Source: Olsenella profusa (lineage in GTDB: Bacteria; Actinomycetota; Coriobacteriia; Coriobacteriales; Atopobiaceae). From it: a DNA stretch of 64,000 nucleotides. A model generated the notes under the pieces. It worked only from the letters and a program-made list of their open reading frames with translations, was not told the origin of the DNA and ran no database searches. Shown here one piece after another: positions 8,386-14,857 of the stretch. The position numbers and the translations under genes were made by a program. Each line of letters opens with the position of its first letter. Within the stretch, counting starts at the first letter, position 1. The stretch covers positions 186,001 to 250,000 of the forward strand of contig NZ_JACSNQ010000001.1 in the NCBI RefSeq assembly GCF_016900315.1, read 5' to 3'.

Positions 8386-9294
8386 ATGAGCCAATCCGTG
8401 CTGACGTTCCAGGACATGATCTTCGAGCTGGAGCGCTACTGGGCCGCTCAGGGCTGCACCGTCATGCAGCCCTACGACTCCGAGGTCGGCGCCGGCACCT
8501 TCCACACCGCGACGACCCTGCGGTCGCTCGGCCCCGACGCCTGGCGCACCTGCTATCCGCAGCCGTGCCGCCGCCCGGCCGACGGTCGCTACGGCGAGAA
8601 CCCCAACCGCCTGCAGCACTACTACCAGTTCCAGGTGCTGCTCAAGCCGTCGCCGGCCGACTCGCAGGACCTCTACCTGGGGTCGCTTGCGGCCATCGGG
8701 CTCGACCCCATGGAGCACGACGTCCGCTTCGTCGAGGACGACTGGGAGAGCCCCACGCTCGGCGCCTGGGGGCTTGGCTGGGAGGTGTGGCTGAACGGCA
8801 TGGAGGTCACGCAGTTCACCTACTTCCAGCAGGTGGGCGGCATCGAGGTCGACCCGGTCCCGGTGGAGATCACCTATGGCCTGGAGCGCATCGCGATGTA
8901 CATCCAGGGCGTCGACTCCGTCTACGACCTCGTCTGGAGCTACCTGCCCGACGGCAGCCCCATGACCTACGGCGACGTCTTCCTCGAGAACGAGCGCGAG
9001 TTCTCCGCCTACAACTTCGAGGTCGCCAACGTGGAGATGATGCGGGAAAAGTTCGACGACTACGAGCGCGAGTGCCACTCGTGCCTCGAGGCGCGCCTGC
9101 CGCTGCCGGCCTATGACTGCGTGATGAAGTGCAGCCACGCCTTCAACCTGCTCGACGCTCGCGGGGCCCTCTCCGCCGTCGAGCGCGCCAACTACATCCT
9201 GCGCGTCCGCGCCGTCGCCAAGGCGTGCTGTGAGGCCTACCTCGCAGAGGTTGCCGCCGCGGGCGAGAAGACCAAGAAGGGGGAGGTGGCCTAG
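8386..9294 (+). CDS. glyQ: Glycyl-tRNA synthetase alpha subunit
   Basis: Catalytic subunit of the bacterial alpha2beta2 glycyl-tRNA synthetase, which charges tRNA-Gly. The start [18 protein letters not shown] and the later [20 protein letters not shown] are family signatures. The 302-residue length is normal. The last dozen residues (GEKTKKGE) are variable. No T-box leader is seen; only 27 bases separate it from lepB. It directly abuts glyS. Confidence 0.97.
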
Positions 9295-11456: not shown

Positions 11457-11858
11457 ATGGCCAAGCTCGATCTTGATGACGACGTCTTCGGACAGGTCGT
11501 CCCTCTCATCTACGTGCTTTCCGACGCGCGCGGCGAAACCGCCAACACCGTGGTGATGGCCGCGGCGGCGCAGTTCGGTGACGGCTCCGTGGAGATCAAG
11601 CGCCTCTCCAACGTGAAGGACGTTGAGACCGTGCGCGACTACTTTGACGAGAACTTCGACCCGGACCGCCCGAGCGCCGTGTTCCACACCTTCGCAAACG
11701 GCATCCTGCGGCGGGAGATTCGCCGCGAGCTCGACCGCCGCGGCATCCCCTCCATCGACCTTCTCGGCCCGGCCGTGACGGTCATCTCCACGCTCACCGG
11801 CGAGGAGCCCACGCGCGCGATCGGCGCGGTCTATAAGGAGGATGCGTCTGCCCAGTAA
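11457..11858 (+). CDS. Half-length PPDK regulatory protein-like (N-terminal domain only)
   Basis: The 133 residues match the N-terminal half of the pyruvate phosphate dikinase regulatory family (DUF299; YqfL/PpsR): LIYVLSDARGETANTVVMAA, then SIDLLGPAVTVISTLTGE. Full members have about 270 residues and a C-terminal half with a P-loop (GxSRTxKTP) for the kinase/pyrophosphorylase reaction. That half is absent. An AGGAGGA site precedes the ATG, the reading frame is intact, and a terminator follows within about 30 bases, so this is not a sequencing break inside a longer gene. It lies just upstream of ppdK. A binding or sensing role without phosphotransfer is inferred. Confidence 0.75.
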   Translation: MAKLDLDDDVFGQVVPLIYVLSDARGETANTVVMAAAAQFGDGSVEIKRLSNVKDVETVRDYFDENFDPDRPSAVFHTFANGILRREIRRELDRRGIPSIDLLGPAVTVISTLTGEEPTRAIGAVYKEDASAQ

Positions 11859-11886: not shown

Positions 11887-11925
11887 AGTGGGGTCGGGCG
11901 TGCGTGCTCGGCCCCACTATTTTTT
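11887..11925 (+). terminator. Rho-independent terminator
   Basis: Outer stem AGTGGGG (11887-11893) with CCCCACT (11912-11918), extended inward with mismatches, followed by TTTTTT at 11920-11925. It separates the DUF299-like gene from ppdK. Confidence 0.7.

Positions 11926-12097: not shown

Positions 12098-14857
<2,760 letters not shown>

Follow-up and report, generated by a model that had tools for sequence, protein, structure and literature searches.

PDRP, the DUF299 protein, is the known switch of pyruvate phosphate dikinase (PPDK), and a loop of its N-terminal domain reportedly contributes to PPDK recognition, according to the maize PDRP structure paper. Family members, among them maize PDRP1 (5d0n) and E. 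coli PSRP, are covered by the models PF03618 and NF003742 and are ~270–300 residues long. A review places a PDRP homolog in all bacteria with PPDK (PMC8100219). One variant with fewer activities has been described, maize PDRP2, which is full-length and retains kinase activity but lacks Pi-dependent activation (PMC6019023). No description of a short DUF299 form was found in the open literature searched.

The window, a stretch of 64,000 nucleotides from Olsenella profusa, encodes such a form, here called P1 (Table 1). P1 shares with PDRP the sequence and fold of the N-terminal domain, its conserved core and the glyS-PDRP-ppdK locus, but it has only 133 residues and lacks the whole C-terminal P-loop domain. 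Residues 18–129 were matched by Pfam PF03618 (E 3.7e-18, 66.6 bits against a cut-off of 23.5) over profile positions 1–110 of 256 only, and hence the protein stops before the P-loop; the GxSRTxKTP domain is absent from an ORF that ends at profile position 110. This agrees with an earlier note on this DNA, in which only the N-terminal half of DUF299 had been recognised. The curated PPDK/PEPS regulator model NF003742 scored P1 at 60.4 bits, below its cut-off of 225, and none of the elements known to catalyse the two reactions is retained. The AlphaFold model is a compact four-strand alpha/beta domain (pLDDT 88.7, pTM 0.80), whose only significant PDB match by Foldseek was maize PDRP 5d0n (E 1.6e-6, probability 1.00); the A1 profile matched the same structure with E 4.3e-9. 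Other fold relatives, such as mannose EIIA (TM ~0.42), were weak and non-significant. By sequence and fold, P1 is thus a homolog of the PF03618 N-terminal domain.

Table 1. Features of the P1 locus, in coordinates of the window
Feature	Position	Strand	Basis or remark
glyQ-like ORF, upstream part of the conserved locus	8386..9294	+	ORF
glyS-like ORF directly upstream of P1	9295..11394	+	ORF; homologs upstream in relatives
Shine-Dalgarno AGGAGG of P1	11444..11449	+	sequence; 7 bases 5' of ATG
P1, N-terminal-domain-only PDRP homolog, 133 aa, ATG start	11457..11858	+	ORF; PF03618 profile 1-110 of 256; fold
First N-domain loop, codons S22-D23-A24-R25-G26-E27	11520..11537	+	D23, G26 invariant; R25 typical of P1
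Codons F76-H77-T78, end of strand 3	11682..11690	+	His throughout Atopobiaceae; mostly Tyr in other PDRPs
Codons D101-L102-L103-G104	11757..11768	+	D101 present in every PDRP sampled
Intrinsic terminator between P1 and ppdK	11887..11925	+	stem 11887-11918, 14 pairs, 9 G-C, T6 run
ppdK, pyruvate phosphate dikinase, 919 aa, presumed P1 partner	12098..14857	+	Pfam; TIGR01828 ~1217 bits; T478/H480

The ORF stands far above chance, given its significant PF03618 match and a frame kept in every congener. Ribosome sites are strong in nearly all P1 orthologs, with a Shine-Dalgarno sequence of 5–6 bases in almost all. The good ribosome site, intact frame and terminator beside ppdK to which the earlier note had drawn attention were all recovered, the last as a strong stem followed by a T run. 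Because the terminator separates them, P1 and ppdK need not be co-expressed. The first ORF of the locus we take to be glyQ. Homologs of glyS lie directly upstream at 104 of 107 P1 loci and at 21 of the 24 loci labelled full-length, two of the 24 being short forms called wrongly. On the other side, ppdK follows within 1 kb on the same strand for 82 of 86 distinct P1 proteins and within 1 kb downstream for 11 of 15 full-length ones, with a median gap of 224 bp for short and 241 bp for full forms. The order glyS-PDRP-ppdK is therefore common to both, though its conservation may be partly a matter of inheritance. At this ancestral glyQS-PDRP-ppdK locus, P1 takes the place of the full regulator, whose ortholog it is. 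Its closest full-length relatives are PDRPs of Atopobiaceae (e.g. a protein of 290 aa, L185 / G310), which occupy the same locus, share His77 and are 52–56% identical to P1 over the N-domain, but have an intact C-half with GVSRTSKTP. In four sampled short-form genomes (G044, G056, G175 and G243) the P1 gene and ppdK are widely separated or sit on separate contigs, and neither has been lost.

The short form extends well beyond one strain. Each of the 31 genus genomes has a single PF03618 match, and in every case it is the short form. Across Atopobiaceae, a family of gut bacteria represented by a set of 140 genomes that includes records named Olsenella, Thermophilibacter and Tractidigestivibacter, an N-domain homolog was found in 132 and a C-half in 15, leaving the short form alone in about 117. 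Full-length PDRP survives in some ten genera of the family. Outside it, PF03618 scores were those expected of full-length or almost full-length matches in a Coriobacteriia sample (n = 398), and the best match per genome spanned most of the profile in an Actinomycetota sample (n = 396). P1 is under purifying selection, with a median within-genus dN/dS of 0.14 (30 sequences), and displayed no relaxed selection, sporadic presence or frame damage of the kind expected of a pseudogene. The proposal of a stable short form is strongly supported by these data, and restriction to this strain, which would have indicated decay, is ruled out. The wider idea that P1 is a decaying remnant of the regulator, heading for loss, could draw on the missing catalytic half and on the degenerate P-loop of the full-length form in genus g4. 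Set against it are the conservation in 31 of 31 genomes, the low dN/dS, the strong ribosome sites and, as described below, a clean domain boundary, repeated independent origin and an invariant core; decay is in practice refuted, and we regard it as hardly credible.

We then consider whether the missing half is encoded elsewhere. In the P1 genome itself, PF03618 gave no second match at E ≤ 10, and so revealed neither a separate DUF299 C-half nor a full-length gene; this genome is ~93% complete, and PF03618 recovered no second piece in any of the 31 genus genomes. A profile of 165 positions built from Atopobiaceae C-halves (threshold E ≤ 0.1) matched only 15 fused full-length genes in 140 Atopobiaceae genomes and no detached C-half. 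Nor was any trace of a C-half found downstream at 127 NTD-only loci. Together with the equal gap to ppdK, this indicates a clean loss of the C-domain, with the break at the boundary between the two domains. The suggestion that the other half resides elsewhere is thus refuted for this genome and family at the sensitivity of these profiles.

A split regulator, in which P1 acts with a diverged or non-homologous kinase encoded elsewhere, would be consistent with the persistence of Thr478 in PPDK. The threonine is indeed present beside His480, in GGKTSHAAV, as had been read from the sequence. However, GGKTSH is identical in short-form genomes, in full-form genomes and at all seven ppdK loci that were read in genomes where no PDRP was detected, so Thr478 is no evidence either way and does not serve as the pointer to regulation that the earlier note took it for. 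Pyruvate kinase is present in all 101 well-sampled Atopobiaceae genomes, so that a PEP-pyruvate futile cycle is possible and would need control, which again fits a split regulator. Since the profiles recover just the 15 fused genes in the family and no second piece in the genus, we consider this arrangement improbable, though a non-homologous kinase is conceivable. The converse idea, that no switch is needed in short-form genomes because they are devoid of pyruvate kinase, was rejected by the same 101 of 101 count; a missing opposing enzyme does not account for the loss of covalent control over PPDK.

The kinase half appears to have been lost more than once. In the N-domain tree, short forms nest among the full-length Atopobiaceae proteins, and a second N-domain-only paralog, P2, forms a separate clade (98/91 support). 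A single truncation giving both P1 and P2 was rejected on this tree (AU p 0.003), whereas a single P1 clade was not (p 0.11). The longer PPDK tree places the short-form genus g5 with g2, g7 and g16, which are full-length genera, and rejects a single P1 origin (AU p ~1e-135). This PPDK tree points to at least two losses of the C-half at the ppdK locus and, with P2, to at least three probable origins of N-domain-only proteins. The short form is well supported as a real, orthologous and selected gene whose kinase half is missing by repeated domain loss. Atopobiaceae thus offer a natural experiment that separates two functions, the catalytic half having been discarded repeatedly while the other half stayed under selection. 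For the short-form genes, the PF03618-derived name ‘kinase/pyrophosphorylase’ is misleading. One metagenome-assembled genome (G407 / L149) carries a full-length PDRP although its PPDK nests among those of short-form genera; transfer, mis-binning or multiple or further losses are possible explanations. In genus g4 (G086, G128), full-length PDRPs with the degenerate P-loop GLSGSAKTP were found (L175:2096-2929, L177:1582-2415), and ppdK is far away from PDRP and very divergent.

Comparison of P1, P2, Atopobiaceae full-length proteins and 43 other full-length PDRPs showed D23, G26 and D101 to be invariant, and T28, T78, Q39 and F40 nearly so; all short forms retain the N-domain core D23, G26, T28, T78 and D101. 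Position 77 is occupied by His in each of the 121 sequences from Atopobiaceae and by Tyr in 38 of the 43 other PDRPs. The His codon (11685-11687 in the window) is found in Atopobiaceae full and short forms alike, and the change from Tyr is for that reason probably older than loss of the C-half. In the secondary structure of the model, the core residues are predicted to lie near strand ends, the usual place of ligand binding in alpha/beta domains. That the core outlived the catalytic domain speaks for a role of the N-domain in its own right.

We lean towards P1 being a selected, non-catalytic PPDK-binding or sensing domain of the PDRP family. The ortholog, minus its C-terminal P-loop kinase/pyrophosphorylase domain, is a stand-alone N-terminal alpha/beta domain, from which phosphorylation or dephosphorylation of Thr478 is not to be expected without the P-loop. 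P1 would most likely still dock on PPDK, and a conserved site where strands 1, 3 and 4 end (D23, G26, T28, H77, T78, R85, D101 and G104) may hold a ligand. PPDK would then be controlled stoichiometrically rather than covalently, with bound P1 holding or releasing the swivelling phosphohistidine domain; we infer the binding, the ligand and the direction of the effect from conservation and fold. The front half probably has its own job, kept beside ppdK family-wide, and the role of the domain is directly testable in a protein of ~130 residues. A non-catalytic docking domain could also act simply as a binder, making P1 a competitive antagonist or a chaperone of PPDK assembly and not a ligand-gated regulator. 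The large domain swivelling in PPDK, described in two reports (PMC5371819, PMC5556012), would allow this, but conservation of polar residues where the strands end suggests a site in addition to one for docking, and we give this possibility little weight.

P2 was read at 20 loci (L153-L172) in several genera, e.g. L162:6080-6469 and L160:6016-6441. Like P1 it consists of the N-domain only and retains D23, G26, T28, H77, T78, R85, D101 and G104, but it is 34–42% identical to P1. Ten of the 20 loci place it directly behind a glycyl-radical-enzyme (GRE) activase gene, the enzyme itself being divergent (TIGR02494, TIGR01774), and often with a DeoR-type regulator too; four have deoC (TIGR00126) close by. 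Among the P2 loci read, it was never beside ppdK. Since P2 keeps the same core without this link, the core is not PPDK-specific. Mainly because of these loci, we retain as an unlikely but serious alternative that the stand-alone N-domain took on a new role in binding small ligands or partners independently of PPDK, as a general metabolic sensor whose targets would be other enzymes or expression. The position of P1 close behind glyS, with the terminator cutting it off from ppdK in the window, would suit such a module. However, P1 stays beside ppdK for nearly all distinct proteins, and it keeps the alpha4 segment GPA..TG.EP known from full regulators, a segment lost in the GRE-linked subgroup of P2. 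More speculatively, and somewhat doubtfully, the PDRP N-half could be an independent sensor that was freed from the kinase at least three times (the main P1 lineage, P1 of genus g5, and P2) and in P2 became attached to different enzymes of anaerobic carbon metabolism, a GRE or deoxyribose-phosphate aldolase. If true, the PEP-pyruvate node and fermentation steps close to it would have a family of small regulators that had gone unrecognised and that might act through the lineage-specific invariant His77. One genome (G388) combines a full-length PDRP at ppdK with a P2 gene elsewhere.

Elsewhere in Coriobacteriia, PDRP and PPDK are usually either both present or both missing, a pattern that speaks for the PPDK-binding reading. 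Comparison of lists for the class (n = 398) gave ~319 genomes with both, 25 with PPDK only, 18 with PDRP only and 36 with neither. Many genomes of one family (f3; G018, G021, G024, G027 and others) lack both, which suggests joint loss of PPDK and PDRP there.
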